DNA from: Candidatus Pollutiaquabacter sp.
Lineage (GTDB): Bacteria; Bacteroidota; Bacteroidia; AKYH767-A; 2013-40CM-41-45
NCBI GenBank assembly: GCA_947465495.1
Contig: CANIAS010000001.1
Location: 1-64,000 of the forward strand
Reading direction: 5' to 3'
DNA: 64,000 nt
The notes beneath the pieces are model-generated. The model was not told the origin of the DNA. It saw nothing but the letters and a program-made list of their open reading frames with translations, and made no database searches. This document shows positions 46,654 to 61,490 of this stretch, piece by piece; position 1 is the first letter of the stretch, and each line of letters begins with the position of its first letter. Made by a program: the position numbers and the translations under genes.

Positions 46654-47895
46654 TCATTCTTCCACATAATCCATAGGCTTGCCATACGTGTCCTTGATGG
46701 AAAAAGAAGCATACAGTGCCGGCACAAATACCAGTATGCCCACCAGGACCAAGCTGTGTAGTAATGAGAATCCAAAGGTATGTTGCAACCACATGCGCAA
46801 TGGAATTAACAGGGTAATAGCGCCTCGCATAAAATTAGTCACAGTGGCCACCACGGTGACACGTAAATTGGTGCCAAATGATTCAGCGGTGGTGGTCACG
46901 AAAATAGACATGAAACCACAACCAAATCCTACCAAAAAAGCGGTAGCGACAATCCATGTAAACCCGAGCATAAAATAAAATCCAGCGAAATAGGATGCCA
47001 CTGCTACAAATGCTCCCAGCATGAAAGCAATAAGAATCTTCTTTCGTGTCTTTAAGCGCTGACTCAACAATCCGCTACTCAAATCGCCGGATGCAATTCC
47101 CACCTGAAATAACATAAAACAGGTTACCGGACGAATCCCTTCGATGCCATAAACTTGTGCTAATTCCGGTGAAAGATTGATCAACATGCCTACACAATAC
47201 CAGACAGGTACACCAATTAGAATAAAACCGATATACCGCAGCGTCCGTTCTTTTGTAGCAAAAAGCAATGTAAAGGATCCGCGTTTTACATTCGGAGCAG
47301 CCTTTACTTTTCGATACATTCCAGGATCTAAGGAGGTCATTCGAAAGAAAAGTAAGATCAGCCCGGCAATTCCGGCTATAATGTAGGTGGTACGCCAAGG
47401 AAGAAAATCTCCCGCCATTCCGGCAGCAATAGCTCCCAGGGCACCCAATACCGCGACAAGAATAGTTCCGTAACCACGACGCTCAATGGTCATGCTCTCA
47501 CTGACCAACGTAATGCCAGCCCCTAATTCACCCGCTAATCCTAGTCCAGCCAAAAATCGGATTACAGCATACGTTTCCACATCTGTCACCCATGCATTCG
47601 CAAGATTGGCGAGTGAATACAATAAGATGCTGCCATATAATACAGAAATGCGCCCGCGGCGATCGCCCATCATGCCGCTGATAATTCCACCGACAATCAT
47701 TCCAAGCATTTGCATTGAAAGCAAGAACTCTCCTGATCTGGTCAGCTGATCGCCAGTCAATCCTAAATCTTTCAGACTTGGGATACGCAATACATTAAAC
47801 AATAAGAGATCGAATGCATCGACGAAAAAACCAAGCCCGGCAATGACCACCGCTTTATTGAGGGGGTGAGTGTATAATTTCTCTTGCAGTTCCAT
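46654..47895 (-). CDS. MFS transporter
   Basis: 'FFVDAFDLLLFNVLRIPSLKDLGLTG', 'GMMGDRRGRISVLYGSIL', 'RFLAGLGLAGELGAGITLVSE'. Confidence 0.92.
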   Translation of the reverse strand: MELQEKLYTHPLNKAVVIAGLGFFVDAFDLLLFNVLRIPSLKDLGLTGDQLTRSGEFLLSMQMLGMIVGGIISGMMGDRRGRISVLYGSILLYSLANLANAWVTDVETYAVIRFLAGLGLAGELGAGITLVSESMTIERRGYGTILVAVLGALGAIAAGMAGDFLPWRTTYIIAGIAGLILLFFRMTSLDPGMYRKVKAAPNVKRGSFTLLFATKERTLRYIGFILIGVPVWYCVGMLINLSPELAQVYGIEGIRPVTCFMLFQVGIASGDLSSGLLSQRLKTRKKILIAFMLGAFVAVASYFAGFYFMLGFTWIVATAFLVGFGCGFMSIFVTTTAESFGTNLRVTVVATVTNFMRGAITLLIPLRMWLQHTFGFSLLHSLVLVGILVFVPALYASFSIKDTYGKPMDYVEE

Positions 47896-47903
47896 AGTAA
47901 CTA

Positions 47904-48812
47904 TTACTGGTTATACGCGACAGCGATCATCGCACCAAGGCGCGAGTTGTTTTTAACGAGTTCTATGTTTGCCGTGAGACTTTCGCCCGCCGTCCGCTCG
48001 GCAATGTACTTCAGCAGAAATGGTGTAATGGATTTTCCTCGAACATCGTTCTCTTCAGCAGCCGACAATGCTTTTTGTATATGTTGCTCCATTACCACAT
48101 ACGACACCTCGTGCTCTTCAGGAACTGGGTTTGCAATCAACACGGATCCGTTTAATTGCAACTGCCATTTTGTGCTGATTAAAGCAGCAATATCGGCCGG
48201 TGTATCCAGTCGAAGTGGCGTTTTGAAACCGCTTTGACGGGAGTAAAAACTAGGGAATTCATCGCTGCCAAACGTGACCACAGGAATCCCTAATGTTTCT
48301 AATTTCTCCAATGTGAGTCCGATATCAAGTATTGATTTGATGCCAGCTGAAACAACAACGACATTGGTTTGTGCCATCTCGGTAAGATCCGCGGACACAT
48401 CCATAGACTGTGCTGCACCTCGATGCACCCCGCCGATTCCACCGGTGACGAAGACGTGGATCCCTGCCATCGATGCGATGCGCATGGTAGCGGCAACTGT
48501 CGTTGCCCCATCCAATCGTTGAGATACAACATACGGCATATCGCGCAAACTCACCTTCCATACATTTTCGGCATGGCCGAGGTAATCTAATTGCGCGTCA
48601 TTCAAACCGACGTGCAATTTGCCTCCAAGAATTGCAATGGTAGCCGGAATTGCACCATGATCACGAACGATTTGTTCCACTTGCCGCGCCGTCGATACAT
48701 TTTGCGGATATGGCATTCCATGAGCAATGATTGTCGACTCCAATGCTACGATTGGCTGATTGTTTTTTAAGGCTTCCAATACTTCGGAAGAAAAGTGTAG
48801 TAGTTCTTTCAT
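47904..48812 (-). CDS. psuG: Pseudouridine-5'-phosphate glycosidase
   Basis: 'IVALESTIIAHGMPYPQNVSTARQVEQIVRDHGAIPATIAILGGKLHVGL', 'VFVTGGIGGVHRGAAQSMDVSADLTEMAQTNVVVVSAGIKSILDIG'. Confidence 0.95.
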   Translation of the reverse strand: MKELLHFSSEVLEALKNNQPIVALESTIIAHGMPYPQNVSTARQVEQIVRDHGAIPATIAILGGKLHVGLNDAQLDYLGHAENVWKVSLRDMPYVVSQRLDGATTVAATMRIASMAGIHVFVTGGIGGVHRGAAQSMDVSADLTEMAQTNVVVVSAGIKSILDIGLTLEKLETLGIPVVTFGSDEFPSFYSRQSGFKTPLRLDTPADIAALISTKWQLQLNGSVLIANPVPEEHEVSYVVMEQHIQKALSAAEENDVRGKSITPFLLKYIAERTAGESLTANIELVKNNSRLGAMIAVAYNQ

Positions 48813-48815
48813 CCT

Positions 48816-49739
48816 TCAATTCATGCGTTGTTCCAACAGTGTCGGAGAGAAATCACTACGAACAGCCCCAACCACTTCCAACAAGCAAGCGGCAGCAGCA
48901 TGACCGTACTTGACACACGTCAGTCCATCGTTGCCATTCAACCATGCGTACACCCATCCTGCCAGGGAAGCATCGCCGGCGCCATTCACATCACGTACGT
49001 GCACTCGTGGAGCCGGAACTGGAACCATGGTAGTGCCATCGGAAAACAAAGAACCTTCTGCACCTCTGCTGAGCCAAACGTTCTTGAAGCCCAATGCATG
49101 CAAGTGCGCTATTTTCTCTTCAGGCGTAACATGTGAATCTTGTTCAAATACCGCCAACTCTTCACGATTCGGTTTCACCAACAATAATTTTCCAGGCAAC
49201 GCATCGCGTAAACGACGCGCCTTAGGGATAGAAACCGTTTCAACGATCAACGGGACATTGTGTTCATTGCAAAAACGCATGAGCCAACGTAACGCTTCGA
49301 CCGAAAGATTACAATCGGCAATGACCACGGATGCGTTACGAAATACATCCGAACGCTGCGTAAAGAAATCAATGGTAAATAAGCGATCAGACTCCGAGGT
49401 GACAGCTCCAATGTGTAAATCACCGGAAGGGGTCGCAATGGAAGCGAAAGTCCCGGTCAATTCTGCGGATATAAATGTATGCTCCAATCCGATTCCTGCG
49501 TCAGTACATTGTCGGGCAAGCCACTGCCCATCTGGATCATTACCGAAGATGGTCACCAATTCCACAGGAACATTCAACAACGCGAGATGATGGGCAATAT
49601 TTCGCACCACGCCACCAGGACTTCGATGCATGCGTGATGGATTGGATGTAAATGGTACCGGCTCTTGCTCACACCGGAAGGTCAAATCGACCAACGACGC
49701 TCCAACACAAACTACCGAACCTGGATAGGCTTTCTTCAT
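48816..49739 (-). CDS. psuK: PfkB-family carbohydrate kinase, likely pseudouridine kinase
   Basis: 'GGVVRNIAHHLALLNVPVELVTIFGNDPDG', 'VRDVNGAGDASLAGWVYA'; 3 bp upstream of psuG. Confidence 0.88.
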   Translation of the reverse strand: MKKAYPGSVVCVGASLVDLTFRCEQEPVPFTSNPSRMHRSPGGVVRNIAHHLALLNVPVELVTIFGNDPDGQWLARQCTDAGIGLEHTFISAELTGTFASIATPSGDLHIGAVTSESDRLFTIDFFTQRSDVFRNASVVIADCNLSVEALRWLMRFCNEHNVPLIVETVSIPKARRLRDALPGKLLLVKPNREELAVFEQDSHVTPEEKIAHLHALGFKNVWLSRGAEGSLFSDGTTMVPVPAPRVHVRDVNGAGDASLAGWVYAWLNGNDGLTCVKYGHAAAACLLEVVGAVRSDFSPTLLEQRMN

Positions 49740-49857: not shown

Positions 49858-51216
49858 ATGGCTTTTCGAGTACTTAAAATCGCGGCACTATTCACCCTTT
49901 CACTTACTTGGCAGTTGATCGCCCAGCCTCAACTGTTGCGTCGATCAAATGATTCACCAGTGATACAGCTTGATCCACGGGGACCTCGTCCTACTTACTA
50001 TAATACCCCATTGCCGTATCAAACAGCAGAGGCGCTGAATCCTTGTGTACGCGATGATGCAACGTATGCTGATTATTACTACTGGCAACATGAATCGGGC
50101 TGGGTGTTGGACCATCGAGTGATCAGGGAGAAGGACGCATCCGGAAAAGTCATACACGAAACTATTTTAGAGAAAACATTAGCGGAACCTATATCGAGCA
50201 TTGAATACCTATACGATGCATCATCTCGACTGATCGAAGTTCGAAAAATGGATCGCCCTAAACACATATCGTTGAGTTTAACCACCATACGAACTTTACA
50301 GTACGATGATCAAACCAGTATCATTCTGAAGGATTGCACGATGGTGCAAGAAGATAACCAATGGAAGGTTCAAGTCGTTCGAAAAACAAATTTGGAAAAA
50401 TCAGAGGATGGACGTTTGTGTTCCTCCCAATGCACCACTATCGATTTAAACGGTGAAAGCGAGCCGATGTTAAGCCGCTATGAATATTCTCAAGGTCGTA
50501 TTTCAACCATTACTCAATTTTCTATGAATCGATTCAGTAATCAATGGACACCTGCTTTTCGTTTTGATTTATTTACATATTCAAACACCTCCTCAACAGA
50601 AATAGTCGGATATCGCTCATCGTACCGTAAAAATGAACATTGGGAAGCATTTAGAAATGATACTAGTTTTTTTATCGGAACCAATCAACACATCTACATG
50701 GGAACACTTCCTGGAAATGGAACCCTGACAGCTATTCACAAAAATGAAATCCGACTTGATGAGCAAGGCAACATTTTTCAAATCACCCAAGCGGGCGGTC
50801 ATCAGGGGGTCGATGAATTGCAAGACATATCGTCCATGCGTTTCGACATCACGTATGTATCCGGTAGCAATCAACCTCAACAAGTAATCGGAATGTACAT
50901 GGATTCCATGGGGATATTCAGAAATTCCGTACTCGTGAAGTACGATGCTGGCGATAACCACCAAAATAACTTGTTGACATTGTATCCAAATCCTGCCAAT
51001 AAAAGCATCCATGTAAACGATGAACTCCTTCGCGCTTCCTCCTCGTTGCTAGAGGTTTTCAATACGCCAGGAAACTTAGTGATGGAAATGAAAATTCCGC
51101 TACAAACCGACGGACATATAACCGTCGAAACAGGAATGCTATCGCCAGGAAGTTACACGCTGCAGTTGACCGGCATTGCAACGATTCATCGAACTCCACT
51201 GGTTATCGTCCGCTGA
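49858..51216 (+). CDS. T9SS-sorted secreted protein, function unknown
   Basis: Signal peptide; C-terminal 'LYPNPANKSIHVND...LSPGSYTLQL'. Confidence 0.75.
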   Translation: MAFRVLKIAALFTLSLTWQLIAQPQLLRRSNDSPVIQLDPRGPRPTYYNTPLPYQTAEALNPCVRDDATYADYYYWQHESGWVLDHRVIREKDASGKVIHETILEKTLAEPISSIEYLYDASSRLIEVRKMDRPKHISLSLTTIRTLQYDDQTSIILKDCTMVQEDNQWKVQVVRKTNLEKSEDGRLCSSQCTTIDLNGESEPMLSRYEYSQGRISTITQFSMNRFSNQWTPAFRFDLFTYSNTSSTEIVGYRSSYRKNEHWEAFRNDTSFFIGTNQHIYMGTLPGNGTLTAIHKNEIRLDEQGNIFQITQAGGHQGVDELQDISSMRFDITYVSGSNQPQQVIGMYMDSMGIFRNSVLVKYDAGDNHQNNLLTLYPNPANKSIHVNDELLRASSSLLEVFNTPGNLVMEMKIPLQTDGHITVETGMLSPGSYTLQLTGIATIHRTPLVIVR

Positions 51217-51222
51217 AAGAGG

Positions 51223-53712
51223 TCAGTCCTTTATTAATCGAATGGTGTACGATTTATCGTTAGCATAAATCCTTCCGATATAACTACCTGCCATCAATTC
51301 TTCGCCGACAATATTTTTTCCGGCAATTAACAATTGTCGAATCAATAATCGACCCTGCTGATCAAAAACAAAAAGTTCGCCGGAATCATCCACGTCGATG
51401 ACAGCAGTATGGTGGAAAGGATTAGGGTACGATATCACTGATCCGATAAACTCTTCCGTGATACCCGCACAAACCGCGAATGTAACCACGACCGTATCCT
51501 TATTAATACAACCTTGCGGTGTAGTGACGGTGATACGAATACTAAAGGCGCCTACTCCACGACCTGTAGTATCGATGGTTAGGGTTTGAGTTGTGGCACC
51601 GGTAGACCATGCATAGGATGATCCTGTATTACCCGCATTGAGCAGGATGGAATTTCCCGCACAAAGTGTTGTGTCCGGACCTAGGGCAACGGTAGGTGCC
51701 GGATTGACAATCAAAGATTGAGTGGCAGTGGCGGTGCAGCCAAAAGGACTTGTATACGTATAAATAATGTTGTGTGTTCCCACACCTGCAATTGCCGTAT
51801 AAAAAGTAGACCCGCCAACACCTGGACCAGAATAGGTACCACCTGCCGGTGAGCCGCCGGTAAGCGCCAACGGCCCTCCATTTACACAACGGGCAGGAAA
51901 AGATGATACTGTAACGACGGGCAACGGATTCACCCGAATAATGGCAGAATCTCTGGAAGTGCATCCATTGTTATCTATGTATTGATAATAAATCATGGTA
52001 GATCCAGTATCAACTAAAGCAGGATTAAACACGTTGGCAGCAATGCCATTTCCAGTATATGTTCCGCCGGAAGGCGTGCCGGTATTAAGTTGTAAGGGAG
52101 CTGCATTTTCGCATAGCGACGGCGGAGAAACGAGATCCACGATTGGAGCCGCATTCACTACAATCGTATCGATGTCCATACCAGCACAACCGTTCACATC
52201 TATATAATCGTACATAATCGCAAATCTTCCCGATCCTGATGCAGTAGGATTAAAACGACCTGCTGTCACATAATTACCGCTATAAACTCCACCTGAAGGT
52301 GTGCCACCCGACAATAGTACAGATGGGCCATTGTTACATAACGAGGCAGGAGGTGCGAAGTTGACAGTCGGTGAATTATACACTACCAAGGTAGAGACCG
52401 CCAAATTGGAACAGCCATTTCCATCGGTATATAAATAGTTGATGGGAAAACTACCTGGACCTGTAACTGCTGGATCAAACTGTCCTCCGCTTACTCCTGA
52501 CCCAGAGTAAGTACCTCCGATTGGGGATCCGCCTGACAAGACAAATGCATTAGACTCTGGGCAGACGCTTGGCAGTGATGTCAAATTGACTTGCGGTAAA
52601 GCCAACACCAACAAGTTGGCAGTATCAGAATTCTGACATCCGTTAGGAGCAAAGTAAGTATAGATGATTGATTTAGTTCCAACACCAACCAGCGAAGGTG
52701 TAAAAATACCGCCGGCAACACCAGGACCGCTATATGCGCCACCAACAGGAATACCACCGGTCAATGGAAATGGAGCCGTGTTGGCACAAACAGGTGCAAA
52801 CGTAGCTAAAGCGACGTTAGGAACATTATTCACATTAATATATGCCGTTGCCGAATTAGAACATCCCGATGGATTGGTGTATGTATAAACAATGGTATCC
52901 AACCCTATCCCAGCAGTATTGGGATAAAAGATCCCAGCCAAAACATGTGCCCCGCTATAACTTCCGCCAACCGGAAGTCCGCCTGTCAAGGTGTAAGGTG
53001 CACTATTGATGCATACATCCGATAAACCAGAAAGCGATACAGAAGGCTTCGGATTCACAACCACTTGTATCGAAGCAGTAGCCGTACAACCGTTAGGGGC
53101 AGTTGCAGTCACACTATACGTCGTTGTTAAGATTGGGAAAACCAGTGCGATTGAATCTACAAAACTCACCAAAGCGGTAGTTGGATTCCAGATGTAAGTA
53201 TTGGGATCGCTACTCTGCGCACTGAGAATGCTAGTGTCACCTTGACAAATTGTTGTACGCGTAGCTGAAACGGAGACCACAGTGCCTAACACGATTTCGC
53301 TGATGGTTGGAAATACAGAAATCAAATAGTTGGCAGCAACTCCATTACCGTTGTATTCAAATACAGCTACGTAATACGTAAGCCCACCCGTCAAACCCGT
53401 AACCGTGGTGTTCGTTCCACTGTTGGCAGAAACCACAAACGTTCCGCCACCCAAATTAGACCCTGACCCGAATTGAGTGCTAGCTGTATATCCTACACCA
53501 TCTGCGGGATAATTCGTAATAGGGTTTTCGGATACAACCACCAGGTGTTGTGATCCATCACCAATTGACCAAACAATTTCCAGCTCATTGCAATTCGTAT
53601 TGAAGATGGTCAAATTGCCAGCCGGTATTGTCGGTTCATTCGCTGCCGTAGCAACACCGGACATCAGCAATGCTATAGCAAAAAACAGGTGGAAGATGGT
53701 GCGTTGAAACAT
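51223..53712 (-). CDS. Large T9SS-sorted secreted repeat protein with N-terminal FN3-like region
   Basis: Signal peptide; six tandem 75-aa units; C-terminal 'SYPNPFHHTAVIDV...LMAGSYIGRIY'. Confidence 0.88.
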   Translation of the reverse strand: MFQRTIFHLFFAIALLMSGVATAANEPTIPAGNLTIFNTNCNELEIVWSIGDGSQHLVVVSENPITNYPADGVGYTASTQFGSGSNLGGGTFVVSANSGTNTTVTGLTGGLTYYVAVFEYNGNGVAANYLISVFPTISEIVLGTVVSVSATRTTICQGDTSILSAQSSDPNTYIWNPTTALVSFVDSIALVFPILTTTYSVTATAPNGCTATASIQVVVNPKPSVSLSGLSDVCINSAPYTLTGGLPVGGSYSGAHVLAGIFYPNTAGIGLDTIVYTYTNPSGCSNSATAYINVNNVPNVALATFAPVCANTAPFPLTGGIPVGGAYSGPGVAGGIFTPSLVGVGTKSIIYTYFAPNGCQNSDTANLLVLALPQVNLTSLPSVCPESNAFVLSGGSPIGGTYSGSGVSGGQFDPAVTGPGSFPINYLYTDGNGCSNLAVSTLVVYNSPTVNFAPPASLCNNGPSVLLSGGTPSGGVYSGNYVTAGRFNPTASGSGRFAIMYDYIDVNGCAGMDIDTIVVNAAPIVDLVSPPSLCENAAPLQLNTGTPSGGTYTGNGIAANVFNPALVDTGSTMIYYQYIDNNGCTSRDSAIIRVNPLPVVTVSSFPARCVNGGPLALTGGSPAGGTYSGPGVGGSTFYTAIAGVGTHNIIYTYTSPFGCTATATQSLIVNPAPTVALGPDTTLCAGNSILLNAGNTGSSYAWSTGATTQTLTIDTTGRGVGAFSIRITVTTPQGCINKDTVVVTFAVCAGITEEFIGSVISYPNPFHHTAVIDVDDSGELFVFDQQGRLLIRQLLIAGKNIVGEELMAGSYIGRIYANDKSYTIRLIKD
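51700..53049 (-). repeat. Six in-frame 225-bp (75-aa) repeats inside the 51223-53712 gene
   Basis: Residues 222-671 divide exactly into 6 x 75 aa, each with C at position 13, a G-G/Y-[ST]-G block and C at position 63. Confidence 0.92.
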
Positions 53713-55481: not shown

Positions 55482-58238
55482 CTACTGTATCAACACCTTT
55501 TGAGTTGCATCACCAGTAATACTGCCCCGTAGTTGCAGGTAGTAGGTACCTGAAGGCAACGCTTTATCAATAGAGAACCGATGGTCGCCAATACCCTGGT
55601 ATTGATTGCAAATCACAACTACCATCTTGCCTTGTGCATCCAATAGCGATGCGGTCATATGCTGAGAAGATTGCAACGAATACCGCACCGTGAATTGCCC
55701 CGAAGAAGGATTAGGGAATGTCGTCAGTTGCAATGCATACGGATCAATGACGGTGACTCCTGCTGCCAACGAATCGAAAATAATCTGCGTGTCCATCGAG
55801 AACATGCCGCTTCCATGGGTTGCAATTGCGACATACCCATCGGAGTTTCGAACATCCATCATCCCAACCACGGTGTAACCAATTTCATTCGGAGAAAGAT
55901 TGGTCCATACAGTTGTCAAGCCATTCAACAGGTTGGTGCCGTATAATCCAGTACTCGTTCCAGCCAGGTAAACATTACCATTGGCAAGTGGCACAATGGA
56001 AATCCAACGCACAGAAGGACCTGAACCATTGCCGGATGCTGTACCTTCAAGATTACCCGAAACCCTGTCCCACGTTGCACCACCATCATTGGATGCAAAA
56101 ATGCTATAGACACGGTAATTCGAAAAAGACACGACGATGTGATCTCCATTGTTCGGATCCACTGCTATAGAACTAATGTTGGAAGCCGCTGGGAAGAGGG
56201 TTGTATTCGTAATATTAGTCAAGGTAGGACTTTGCGTATCTGCATTATCCAAACGAAATAATTGACTATTGTTATATCCATAGTACACCCTGTTCGCAGG
56301 AGAACTGCATACAGCCAGCGCACTGATCTTGGCACCGGCCACCGAATCCGGCAGCATGAACCAACCTGTACTGATACTGTCCCACTGGCCTGTCAATGGA
56401 ATCAGATCGAGGCTATCATTGCGCCACAAACGACTTCCTGCAGGAAGATACATTCGGTTGTTATTATTCGGATCAAGGGCAAACGGCGTAATGAACTGGT
56501 AGTTGTCTCCTCCAATCGGATCAATGCGACGGAAAGACAACAAATTGCCGTTCGGGTCTAGTTGGTAACGCGCAATTTTACCTTCCTGGCGAGACATGTA
56601 ATAATAGGCATGTCCGTTTTCTATCGCACAATATCCCCCATCGCCAAATCCAGGCTGAACCCACGGTGCGGTATAATTATTCGTATTGGTAAACCAAGTG
56701 CCATTGTCCTGTGCACCACCTAATAAAATATCATTCGGCAGACTACCGTGATCAATCGCTACTGAATAAAACTGGCCAGTAACATAACCGCTGCTCATGG
56801 ACTGCCACTGAACCGAGGTGTCCATGTTGTTGTCGGTCCGATACAAACCACCATCATTCGCCTGGATCATTTTATCCGGATTCGATGGGTAGAATACTAA
56901 TTGATGCTGATCGGAGTGGTTGTTGAGATAATTTGAATAAAATGGAATGGTCGATAACGGGTTGTATCCTCCAATTAAGGTAATGTTATTCCCGGAAGTA
57001 AAGCCATCGGTAGAACGGAACAGATTAGTTCCACCGATGAAAACGGTATTTGAATCACCAGGGTGTACTTTGACCACCAAGTCGTATCCTCCTTGCGCAT
57101 TGAAGTTGCCTAATTGTAACGTGCTATCCTGAGGAATCGCAGCCGAAAGATCCTGCCACTGGCCGCCAGCGCCAGTACCATTTCCGCTGATATAAGTATA
57201 CTTCAATAAACTATTCCATTCTTCTTCTCCCTTATAGTTGGTGGAACGTTTACCATGCAATGGGGTTTGACCTAAAAAATAAACATTGTTCTCGTTCGAC
57301 GGATCAATGCCAATCACGATCCGATCAACTGTGGCTGTATCCAAATCGGGAGGAGTAATCTTTGCCCATCCAAGTATTTTGTCTTTGCGCCATATTCCTT
57401 TCGAAGGCCCGTCGCTGCTTAACGTAGCATAAACGACTCCTTGGGATGTAACAGCTACTTCAGTAAAATAAGAAAATGCCGATCCGCTGCTATTTCCGCG
57501 ATCTACTGTCCACGAAGTTCCACCATTTGCGCTGCGGTAGATAGCTCCATAGGTGGCTGCATACACTACACTATTGACTGTATCACTCGGATCCGTAACC
57601 ACTCGCCACTGCAAATCCCAAACATTGTCAAACACGTGAGGCGTATTGGAACTGGTGCTGGTCAATAAACTCCACGTGATCCCACCGTTCGTTGATTTAA
57701 ACATTCCACCACCCAGGTAATAAGCACCACTGGCACTGTGAGAGGCTCCATAACCTTCTCCTGTCGTACAGTACCAAGTATCTGTGTGTCCAGGACGAGT
57801 ATCTTGTGCAATGTGAGTGATGGAAGGATTCGTTGCCAACGAAGAAACACGTGTCCATGTAGCGCCACCATCCACTGAACGCCAGATGCCACCGTTGACA
57901 GTTCCGGCAATGATGATGTTTTCATCCGTCACATCAATCGCCACTGCACGCGTCCGACCGGCTAAGTTCCATGGACCACGTTTAGCGATATAACTATTCA
58001 TTCGGCTGGATGACGATGAGGTCGTTATCTTAGGAAGATGAATCGAAAACTCCAATTCTTCATTGCGAATACCAAACGGAATCTTACCGGTAGCCGGATC
58101 CGCCAAACATTGCACTTCCCATTCAGCACGCTCAATGGCGTCATCTTTGGAATCAAATGCAGCAGGAGAAAGAACATTGGATTGCTGCGCGCGTGCTGTG
58201 ACAGCCACCAAAAGCAGGAGTAGTAGTCGAGTTTTCAT
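55482..58238 (-). CDS. Large T9SS-sorted sortilin/VPS10-like beta-propeller protein
   Basis: Repeated 'SVDGGATWTRVSS', 'STNGGITWSLL', 'SANGGTSWTVD', 'SNDGGATWDRVSG' Asp-box-like motifs; C-terminal 'TFPNPSSGQFTVRY...LPSGTYYLQL'; ATG 58238 begins the signal peptide. Confidence 0.87.
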   Translation of the reverse strand: MKTRLLLLLLVAVTARAQQSNVLSPAAFDSKDDAIERAEWEVQCLADPATGKIPFGIRNEELEFSIHLPKITTSSSSSRMNSYIAKRGPWNLAGRTRAVAIDVTDENIIIAGTVNGGIWRSVDGGATWTRVSSLATNPSITHIAQDTRPGHTDTWYCTTGEGYGASHSASGAYYLGGGMFKSTNGGITWSLLTSTSSNTPHVFDNVWDLQWRVVTDPSDTVNSVVYAATYGAIYRSANGGTSWTVDRGNSSGSAFSYFTEVAVTSQGVVYATLSSDGPSKGIWRKDKILGWAKITPPDLDTATVDRIVIGIDPSNENNVYFLGQTPLHGKRSTNYKGEEEWNSLLKYTYISGNGTGAGGQWQDLSAAIPQDSTLQLGNFNAQGGYDLVVKVHPGDSNTVFIGGTNLFRSTDGFTSGNNITLIGGYNPLSTIPFYSNYLNNHSDQHQLVFYPSNPDKMIQANDGGLYRTDNNMDTSVQWQSMSSGYVTGQFYSVAIDHGSLPNDILLGGAQDNGTWFTNTNNYTAPWVQPGFGDGGYCAIENGHAYYYMSRQEGKIARYQLDPNGNLLSFRRIDPIGGDNYQFITPFALDPNNNNRMYLPAGSRLWRNDSLDLIPLTGQWDSISTGWFMLPDSVAGAKISALAVCSSPANRVYYGYNNSQLFRLDNADTQSPTLTNITNTTLFPAASNISSIAVDPNNGDHIVVSFSNYRVYSIFASNDGGATWDRVSGNLEGTASGNGSGPSVRWISIVPLANGNVYLAGTSTGLYGTNLLNGLTTVWTNLSPNEIGYTVVGMMDVRNSDGYVAIATHGSGMFSMDTQIIFDSLAAGVTVIDPYALQLTTFPNPSSGQFTVRYSLQSSQHMTASLLDAQGKMVVVICNQYQGIGDHRFSIDKALPSGTYYLQLRGSITGDATQKVLIQ

Positions 58239-58289
58239 CCCGTCAATATACAAAAGAGTTATTCGCTTTTTTACAGGCACAAAAACGGG

Positions 58290-58331
58290 TATAAACAAAA
58301 ACAGGCCGGAATCTATGAATTCCGGCCTGTT
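58290..58331 (-). terminator. Intrinsic terminator of the 58350-59714 gene
   Basis: Perfect 13-bp stem AACAGGCCGGAAT...ATTCCGGCCTGTT, minus-strand T-tract TTTTTGTTT. Confidence 0.88.
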
Positions 58332-58349
58332 GAAGAAATTACGTTTAGC

Positions 58350-59714
58350 TTACTTGGAAATAAGCTGGACTGCTTTGCCGTCTGGGTTTTCCACGGTAAG
58401 CACGTAGGTGCCTTTCGCCCACTGCGAAGTGGCAATCCGAAGCTCACGAGCGGCGTTAACACTTTCCAAATAGATAACTCGTCCAGCCTGATCCGCAACG
58501 ATCACGGTGAAGTCTGATTGTTGTTGCAAATCAATCATGAGGAAGTCTTGTACCGGATTAGGATACACCTTTAACTTCTCAAGCGAAACAGGAACTGAAA
58601 TCCCCACGGTAGAAAATGACTGACATGCAGAAGTGGTTGTACAACTTCCAGTACTCACCGTTACCGCATATGATCCGTTCGAGGTAGGAGTGTATGACTG
58701 TCCGGTTTCTCCAGGGATTGGTTGGTTACCATTGGAACAATCCAACCACTGATACGATGCACCGGCTTGCTGTGCAGTTAAGGTCGTACCGTCGTTATCT
58801 ACTGCATCATTGATACCCGATGATAGCGTGAGGCGAACCGTTGAGTCACAAAAGCTGGAGGAAAGATAGACCTGCGTGTAAACACCTGGTGCGGTCAAAG
58901 TCTGCGGACCAAACGCATAGGTTGAGCCTGGACAAATGAAGTCCGTAATATCGTTCACAGTAGCTACCCCAGTAACGAAATTAGATAAGGGACCATTCAA
59001 TCCGAAATTATTCATGGCTCCATTAATATTGCCTGTCTCATCATTCAAAGAACTGATTCCAGTATTATTCCCCGCTGCAATTCCCTGGTTGAATTTATAA
59101 TAAAGCTGCAATCCCGAGGAGGTTGGGGCCGTACCGAAATTAGCCAGACAACGGATTTCCGCTGGGGAAAGGTATCTATTCCACAATGTGACTTCATCAA
59201 CTTCGCCACTTAAGTAATAATTGAAAGTACCATAAGGCATCCCTCCAATGAATAGTGCTTCGGTAGCGTTGCTAATAGAACCATTCGCAACAGTAGTAGC
59301 TACAAATTGTCCGTTTTTATACAAGGTAAGTTCAGCCCCATTGTAGGTTAGCGCATAATGTTGCCATACACCTACTGAAACAGCTGTATCAATCACATCG
59401 AAATTCACTCCATTGGAATTTCTGAATCGTGCTTCCAGACGCGTTGGACCAAAATGAACCATGTAGAAATCCGCATCAGCATTGTTTCGAATACCAGCAA
59501 AGCCGTCGTAATCCGGAAAAGAAATATTGGCATTCATTGGTTTCACCCAACAGGTCAGGGTAATCTGATTGGATCCAGCAATTCTCGCAGAAGCTGCCGG
59601 AACGACCACTTCGTCGTCAATGTTATCAAAATTCAGCGCATTCTCAGTTTGAGCCATTACAACTGCTGGAACAAATAACCAGCAAAAGAGACTAAGTTTT
59701 TTCAAGTAGTTCAT
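58350..59714 (-). CDS. T9SS-sorted LamG/concanavalin-like domain protein
   Basis: 'ALNFDNIDDEVVVPAASARIAGSNQITLTCWVKP...WQHYALTYNGAELTLYKNGQFV...LFIGG...GEVDEVTLWNRYLS'; C-term 'VYPNPVQDFLMIDL'. Confidence 0.9.
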   Translation of the reverse strand: MNYLKKLSLFCWLFVPAVVMAQTENALNFDNIDDEVVVPAASARIAGSNQITLTCWVKPMNANISFPDYDGFAGIRNNADADFYMVHFGPTRLEARFRNSNGVNFDVIDTAVSVGVWQHYALTYNGAELTLYKNGQFVATTVANGSISNATEALFIGGMPYGTFNYYLSGEVDEVTLWNRYLSPAEIRCLANFGTAPTSSGLQLYYKFNQGIAAGNNTGISSLNDETGNINGAMNNFGLNGPLSNFVTGVATVNDITDFICPGSTYAFGPQTLTAPGVYTQVYLSSSFCDSTVRLTLSSGINDAVDNDGTTLTAQQAGASYQWLDCSNGNQPIPGETGQSYTPTSNGSYAVTVSTGSCTTTSACQSFSTVGISVPVSLEKLKVYPNPVQDFLMIDLQQQSDFTVIVADQAGRVIYLESVNAARELRIATSQWAKGTYVLTVENPDGKAVQLISK

Positions 59715-59763
59715 GGGAGGTATTTGAGTTTATAGTATAAGTATTGGTGAAAGTTCGTCGCTA

Positions 59764-59801
59764 CGAAAAAAGCGGGCGACGGAATCATCCGTCGCCCGCT
59801 T
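59764..59801 (-). terminator. Intrinsic terminator of the 59817-61490 gene
   Basis: Perfect 14-bp stem AAGCGGGCGACGGA-ATCA-TCCGTCGCCCGCTT with minus-strand T-tract. Confidence 0.9.
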
Positions 59802-59816
59802 CATTGAATGAATACA

Positions 59817-61490
59817 TTATTCAATGACCAATTTACCAGTACGCAACACCGCTGCGTCTGACGTAAGAATGGTATAGAAATAAATTCCATGCTGCAATTC
59901 GCGTACATCCAATTCCTGACCAGCTGCAACACGATCACGTTCGTAAACCAGTCGGCCAGACGCATCGGTCATGCGGATGGTCACGGTCTCAGAGATTTTA
60001 CCTGCAATCCGAATCTGTCCTTTGGATGGATTCGGAACAACCGTAACAAATGGCTTAGCATCAATGGTAGCAACTCCTGAAGTGTTATTGAATACCGTGA
60101 TGGTTTGCATAATACTATCTGTAAAACAGCCACCCGCACTGTACGCCAACAACATCACGTTGTACGTTCCTGGAACAGCATAATAGTGCAAGGTGTCAAA
60201 GGTGGAGTACCCAGCGGTGCCATCACCGAAATCCCAAAAACAACGGGAGTAATCAGTACTGCGGTTATCAAAATAAATTGTAGTACCCGTATCTGGAATA
60301 GCCAGATACGCTGCCGTAGGAGCCGCTACCACGCGGATTGTCACCGGAGTAGTCGTTACTTGAGTAGGGGTTCCATTATCCGTTCCAAGGAATTGGATTG
60401 TGTGGAATCCAGTATTATTGTTCGTAGCTGTCACAAAAACAGATGCAGAAGCAACAGATCCAGGAGTAACATTGGTAACCGTAGCATCTTGCATACTACC
60501 CAGATTGACCGAAGGTGTTGTCTGTTGATTGTTTTCAGGAGCAAGGAATTCAACACTGATCGTAGTGGTATCTCCCAAGCAAAGTACGATCGTATCGCAA
60601 GCAGATAAGGAACTAACTACAGGCGCAATGTTGAAATTATTAATGCAGGTATTAAATACAAACGACTGATTATCCAGGAAGCTAATTCCATCGGCGGCAC
60701 CATAAGGGCCATCGTATGTATTACCCGGAGCATCAAAACGGCCCATCTGGATGTAGTTGATTCCGTTTCCTTGGTTTACACCTACGGTAGCAGGAACTCC
60801 ACCAAAACCGTTCACACCTTGGGAAGCACTACCCGTAGTCCACTCCATGTTTTTATAGCAGAATCCTACGTTGTAACCGGAAGGCAACAACGGATCCAAT
60901 CCATCGGTAATAATGAGCTGGAATGCGTTGCGCATGTCATCCATGGAATTGAAATATCCAACAGAATCCCACTGCACTATCAAGTGGGTATTGGTCAATT
61001 CATAATACACCAATCCACTCAGCGCTCCACGAGTATCGACATCGGCCCAGAACGGAGCAATCATCACGAAATTCGTATTTGGGAAAGAGTCTGAACTGTA
61101 GGTGGCGTAAGGTGATCCAAAAGAAATATTTCCGTTGTTGTTAATGAACAACTTTCGAAGATACTGTCCATAAAAACAGAATGGAGATACCAACGAGATG
61201 GTATCGGTAGAGCCATCGTCATTGCGGTAATCAGGAGCGGTACCATTCGTAAATGGCGCTACCTGCCACGCGCGGTCACGCTCAACCCAACAATCACAGG
61301 AACTGATGGTGCGAGAAGCACCTTCAGGGGTATAAATAATTTGGGAATGTTCATTGCTGTTGCGAGCCATGTTAAGCGCCGGATCTTTTCCGGGAAAGAA
61401 TGTAGCGCCCACAGCTGATTGCTGGGCATCCACCGAAAGAGTTACCATTTGAAAAATGGCAAACACTGTAATTAGTAATTTTTTAGACAT
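59817..61490 (-). CDS. T9SS-sorted secreted protein with PKD domain
   Basis: PKD-like 'CFWDFGDGTAGYSTFDTLHYYAVPGTYNVMLLAYSAGGC'; C-term 'VVPNPSKGQIRIAG...LQHGIYFYTI'. Confidence 0.88.
   Translation of the reverse strand: MSKKLLITVFAIFQMVTLSVDAQQSAVGATFFPGKDPALNMARNSNEHSQIIYTPEGASRTISSCDCWVERDRAWQVAPFTNGTAPDYRNDDGSTDTISLVSPFCFYGQYLRKLFINNNGNISFGSPYATYSSDSFPNTNFVMIAPFWADVDTRGALSGLVYYELTNTHLIVQWDSVGYFNSMDDMRNAFQLIITDGLDPLLPSGYNVGFCYKNMEWTTGSASQGVNGFGGVPATVGVNQGNGINYIQMGRFDAPGNTYDGPYGAADGISFLDNQSFVFNTCINNFNIAPVVSSLSACDTIVLCLGDTTTISVEFLAPENNQQTTPSVNLGSMQDATVTNVTPGSVASASVFVTATNNNTGFHTIQFLGTDNGTPTQVTTTPVTIRVVAAPTAAYLAIPDTGTTIYFDNRSTDYSRCFWDFGDGTAGYSTFDTLHYYAVPGTYNVMLLAYSAGGCFTDSIMQTITVFNNTSGVATIDAKPFVTVVPNPSKGQIRIAGKISETVTIRMTDASGRLVYERDRVAAGQELDVRELQHGIYFYTILTSDAAVLRTGKLVIE

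Follow-up and report, generated by a model that had tools for sequence, protein, structure and literature searches.

Tandem Ig-like stalks are found everywhere in the surface proteins of Bacteroidota, where the usual annotation is PKD or Ig filler. The window considered here, a stretch of 64,000 nucleotides from Candidatus Pollutiaquabacter sp., encodes such a stalk: the ORF at 51223..53712 on the minus strand specifies an 829-aa predicted T9SS-exported Ig-like repeat protein with six consecutive 75-aa units, each carrying exactly two cysteines, at unit positions 13 and 63 (C13 and C63). The question raised by this locus is whether these cysteines close each domain or join it to its neighbours. 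If they staple neighbours rather than closing each domain, such stalks would be covalently locked rods.

Domain organisation of the protein

The six units occupy residues 222-671 (53049..51700, minus strand) without gaps, and C13 and C63 are present in 6/6, as the sequence-only reading had described. They are unit 1 (residues 222-296, C234 and C284; 52825..53049), unit 2 (297-371, C309 and C359; 52600..52824), unit 3 (372-446, C384 and C434; 52375..52599), unit 4 (447-521, C459 and C509; 52150..52374), unit 5 (522-596, C534 and C584; 51925..52149) and unit 6 (597-671, C609 and C659; 51700..51924), all on the minus strand. Pairwise identity among the units is 33-51% at the amino-acid level and 42-52% at the nucleotide level, and 18 of the 75 columns are invariant (P2, V4, C13, L21, G24, P26, G28, G29, Y31, G33, F41, G49, I53, Y55, Y57, G62, C63 and V73). 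At lag 75 the array has a self-identity of 0.44, whereas no other lag from 40 to 109 exceeds 0.12. Thus, the periodicity is beyond chance.

The array is longer than had first been noted, as divergent domains of the same kind are found on either side, at residues 148-221 and 672-747. The first (53050..53271, minus strand; C156 and C209) is matched by Pfam Ig_7 (PF19081, E 1.6e-6; 28.7 bits, cut-off 27.3). The second, an Ig/PKD-like domain (51472..51699, minus strand; C684 and C735), is found by the unit profile (E 2.5e-4), and scores 19.4 bits against PKD_4, under the cut-off of 27. Single cysteines flank the array: C41 (53590-53592, minus strand) before it and C748 (51469..51471, minus strand) after it, the latter a terminal cap cysteine 13 residues beyond the C63 equivalent.

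Residues 1-23 (53644..53712, minus strand) are a predicted signal peptide, recognised by inspection as a hydrophobic stretch ending in ATAA. The N-terminal domain that follows (residues 24-147; 53272..53643, minus strand), which includes the lone C41, has no Pfam match, and its AF2 confidence is partly low. At the other end, residues 762-829 (51226..51429, minus strand) form a T9SS type-A sorting domain (TIGR04183, E 6.1e-7). In a phmmer search of PDB with the whole protein, OspA was a weak match (E 0.41) and was ignored. With the window's Ig_7 domain as query, phmmer found spurious Kelch-like matches and nothing else.

Homology and distribution of the repeat unit

Searches with the six units hit no model in Pfam or NCBIfam, those for Ig_7 (PF19081) and PKD (PF18911 and PF00801) included, and PHROGs gave no match either. 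The units are homologous to Ig_7, though: profiles of two units and of two Ig_7-like domains align with 97.8% probability (E 1.1e-12, hhalign), and single-domain profiles of units and Ig_7-like domains with 95.9%. The cysteine positions are the same in both, whereas the core P.GG.Y[ST]G, F41 and YxY are the units' own. On profile comparison, then, the repeat unit is a new relative of Ig_7.

The unit is present in 11/11 genomes of the host's family, and in 32/297 sampled genomes of the phylum (E 1e-6). A search of the genome collection for related loci, with a three-row unit alignment as query, found it in 411 places, and the 80 loci that were kept belong to Bacteroidota and Ignavibacteria. There are up to 29 tandem copies per protein, as in a 2937-aa ORF from a member of Flavobacteriales UBA1986 (L146) that has 29 consecutive recognised units. 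Across the unit family, junction spacing is 75 in 223 cases, 74 in 103 and 76 in 101. The modal spacing is thus 75 family-wide, and the 75-aa length is no peculiarity of the window gene.

Cysteine co-occurrence across junctions and at array ends

Across junctions, the two cysteines of neighbouring domains occur together. C13 of one unit and C63 of the next are both present in 380/380 adjacent unit pairs. With Ig_7-like domains included, 616/618 pairs agree (615 with both cysteines, 1 with neither); the 2 discordant pairs involve PKD-type domains and are apparent misalignments. All 120 adjacent Ig_7-like pairs (120/120) obey the rule. The same comparison of C13 and C63 within one domain (618) gives 14 discordant cases and 0 without both. 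Each cysteine is kept in about 96% of the 520 family units and joint loss of the two inside one unit is seen in none of them, as sampled with a search profile that favours units with both.

Units lacking one cysteine lie at the array ends. Those without C63 begin arrays, a side of the rule represented by 5 units only; those without C13 end arrays and retain C63. In L116, the domain ahead of a C63-less unit has lost C13 too, so that both sides of a single junction are affected; this is the one pair with neither cysteine. For first units, statistics on upstream cysteines are too noisy to serve as a test, since the upstream domains vary in length. At the downstream end, presence of C13 in the unit that directly precedes the sorting domain was compared with presence of a cysteine at C63+13: 40 arrays have both, 9 have neither and 0 are mixed, and the nine last units without C13 span several orders. 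Counting L162 as well, there are 41 with both (Fisher 4e-10), but L162 is a masked artefact, hence the figure of 40; since the sequences share ancestry, P values are not strictly valid here and the Fisher test overstates independence. The cap cysteine at C63+13 is absent from 403/403 internal junctions. Where C13 is displaced 5-6 residues upstream, the downstream cysteine lies at +18 instead of +13 (6/6). Units with displaced C13 in L092, L093, L133 and L151 are followed by a common downstream domain, with a motif like LTDIRDNKQYPTVxIGxQCW and the cysteine at +18.

The flanking cysteines of the window protein are conserved, C41 in 5/5 aligned relatives covering that position and C748 in the relatives that cover it. 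When C13 is paired with the next C63, all 18 cysteines of the 829-aa protein find partners. The predicted staples are 41-209, 156-284, 234-359, 309-434, 384-509, 459-584, 534-659 and 609-735, with the cap 684-748. Covariation suggests that the cysteines paired in this way form disulfides.

Fold geometry

Mean-field DCA of 560 units places strand A parallel to strand G, with couplings 2-63, 4-67, 6-69, 9-71 and 11-74. C63 therefore lies beside residue 2, at the N-terminal pole of the unit by coevolution, and C13 beside residue 74, at the opposite, C-terminal pole. An AF2 model of units 2 and 3, built from 100 aligned sequences, is confident (pLDDT 97.8, pTM 0.83) and has a continuous strand 64-74, so that C13 and C63 within one unit would be separated by an estimated 30 A or so. 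The sequence-only reading had proposed one C13-C63 disulfide per unit; coevolution sets these two cysteines far apart, at opposite poles, and the junction and array-end statistics pair C13 with the next C63 or with the cap. That part of the earlier reading is thus not upheld.

The coupling 13-63 within a unit ranks 94/2556 (560 units), and the coupling 13-63' between units ranks 7/5610 (z 3.4, 386 concatenated unit pairs). Most couplings ranked above 13-63' are of the i-i' kind, which is expected from repeat duplication, and these were set aside. Among inter-unit couplings of differing positions, only 73-62' outranks 13-63'. Enrichment of the inter-unit block 9-17 x 58-67' is not significant, as about 10% of blocks score equally high. 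A full-length AF2 model, from a shallow alignment, has pTM 0.35, and was dropped as an argument for stiffness because of its high global uncertainty.

Age and selection

A syntenic ortholog is found in the same genus, in a MAG from lake Erken (L090/L170), and shares both its gene neighbours and its 1+6+1 array with the window protein. It is 55% identical over 842 aa, compared with 71-91% for the neighbouring enzymes. The 829-aa protein evolves faster than its enzyme neighbours. Each unit has its best match in the L170 unit at the same position, or one within 0.01 of the best (one near-tie), and same-position identities for units 1-6 are 0.55, 0.63, 0.64, 0.47, 0.52 and 0.64. As same-position units are the most alike between the orthologs, the six-unit array predates their split. 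Per unit, dN against the ortholog is 0.29-0.51 and synonymous sites are saturated. These values and the position-by-position matches bear out the earlier view of a fixed fold as opposed to recent duplication, and indicate that the fold is old.

The gene at 49858-51216 on the plus strand encodes another protein with a T9SS sorting domain. It is 28% identical to its syntenic counterpart, against the 71-91% of the adjacent enzymes, and on sequence identity its product is a fast-evolving surface protein. At 46654-49739 (minus strand), genes named by inspection as an MFS-like transporter, a pseudouridine-phosphate glycosidase-like protein and a PfkB-like kinase stand in a row that is syntenic in the Erken genome, and may form a pseudouridine salvage cluster.

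Export and a proposed model of the rod

Of the earlier proposal of a rigid T9SS-exported stalk, the export part is supported. The sorting domain scores 29.3 bits against TIGR04183, above the cut-off of 23 for T9SS type-A cargo (14.3 bits against Pfam PF18962, under its cut-off of 27), and SprA_N is found in the same genome (E 2.1e-161). The stalk itself is plausible. Three more T9SS cargos are encoded at 55482-61490 (minus strand): a BNR/sortilin-like propeller, a laminin-G-like protein and a nidogen-like PKD protein.

The sequence evidence makes it quite probable that the protein is a T9SS-exported rod of Ig-like domains in which a C13(n)-C63(n+1) disulfide closes each junction. From what is known of the family, it would be exported by the T9SS, with folding and oxidation taking place in the periplasm or on the cell surface. 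Behind the N-terminal domain, the rod would then consist of the Ig_7 domain, the six units and the PKD-like domain, in that order, with the cap 684-748 immediately ahead of the sorting domain. Each staple would link the C-terminal pole of domain n, where C13 lies, to the N-terminal pole of domain n+1, where C63 lies. Staples of this kind would be expected to stiffen the rod and to help it to resist unfolding and proteolysis. The rod would keep the N-terminal domain (24-147) at the tip, away from the cell, and may so serve as an adhesin or as a spacer; display of the rod at the surface, its stiffness and any adhesive role are likewise presumed.

Pairing across junctions, which takes the place of pairing within units, extends by the same sequence rule to adjacent Ig_7-like domains. 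If it is true, annotators and modellers would reassign many disulfides, and disulfide maps could be read from sequence. The mechanics of T9SS adhesins could be tested by simple cysteine replacement, and the array starts and ends predicted by the rule could be checked in existing cryo-EM maps. Such pairing would also offer a general means by which one polypeptide forms an extracellular rod held together by covalent stitches.

Alternative explanations

The alternative that survives best, which is nevertheless rather unlikely, accepts the pairing but regards the array as ordinary Ig_7/PKD filler, in which disulfides only stabilise small domains and it is the N-terminal domain that carries the function. 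Arrays like this abound: the unit occurs in every genome of the family and the host genome has 126 type-A sorting domains. However, pairing that crosses junctions restricts the geometry between domains, whatever else it does, and the Erken ortholog has retained both the number and the order of the units.

It is improbable that the cysteines are structural or metal-binding without forming disulfides, or that they cross-link neighbouring chains. Genes for VKOR and DsbB were not found in the host genome, nor was VKOR in the 11 genomes of the family, though all of these carry cysteine-paired arrays; this speaks for the possibility and counts against the staple model. Disulfides between different Bacteroidota envelope proteins are known (PMC12635249), a point in favour of interchain links. 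Against this, the strict one-to-one pairing at junctions and the single end cap fit intrachain pairs, and two cysteines per site are few for a metal site.

Least probable of all is a separate C13-C63 disulfide in each 75-aa unit, in the style of a classical Ig domain with peptide linkers alone joining the units, since the constant two cysteines per unit and their high retention, which it would account for, are outweighed by the parallel A and G strands that set C13 and C63 at opposite ends, by the conserved C41 and C748 that it leaves unpaired, and by its failure to explain the cysteine losses at array starts and ends, the 40:0:0:9 cap rule or the absence of units without both cysteines.

Comparison with known systems

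Disulfide staples between neighbouring domains would be a further way of making rigid stalks. In RTX adhesins (MpIBP, MhLap, AhLap and SiiE), the extender repeats are beta-sandwiches arranged in tandem as a stalk, and a bound feature rigidifies their junctions (PMC7493085). RTX adhesins carry calcium in their linkers and depend on type I secretion, whereas the window protein has cysteines and a T9SS sorting domain; a disulfide solution is not mentioned in that account of RTX stalks. For bacterial Ig arrays, no description of a disulfide chain running from domain to domain came up in literature searches, whose coverage did not extend to the GhpA structure paper.

The sole confident match of the unit profile among PDB sequences is Cis19 (All3314), from the thylakoid-anchored contractile injection system of Anabaena (PDB 7b5h; E 1.8e-9, or 2.6e-18 with two units). 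In the aligned repeats of Cis19 (residues ~930-1270), the first lacks C63, the last lacks C13 and the middle ones have both. Cis19 differs in being a cyanobacterial baseplate crown protein, and its upper flexible domains are absent from the structure model (PMC8894136). The repeat may have been shared horizontally with Bacteroidota.

Among two-domain folds in PDB, the two-unit model is matched best by GhpA (Grappling hook protein A) from Aureispira, a member of the same phylum (PDB 9flp and related entries; TMq 0.54). In the neck of GhpA, Ig_7-like repeats bearing the C..G and NGC motifs stand in a long tandem row (E 0). GhpA differs in being a 5898-aa hook protein, and its likeness is known here from the fold match and the sequence motifs; a sequence search of PDB with the units as query did not find it. 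A single daisy-chain rule, in which domain n is bonded to n+1, the ends are capped and there is no intradomain bond, is on balance slightly favoured for Ig-like arrays that carry cysteines, in Bacteroidota surface proteins as well as in Cis19 and GhpA. The GhpA structures may already show such inter-domain bonds.
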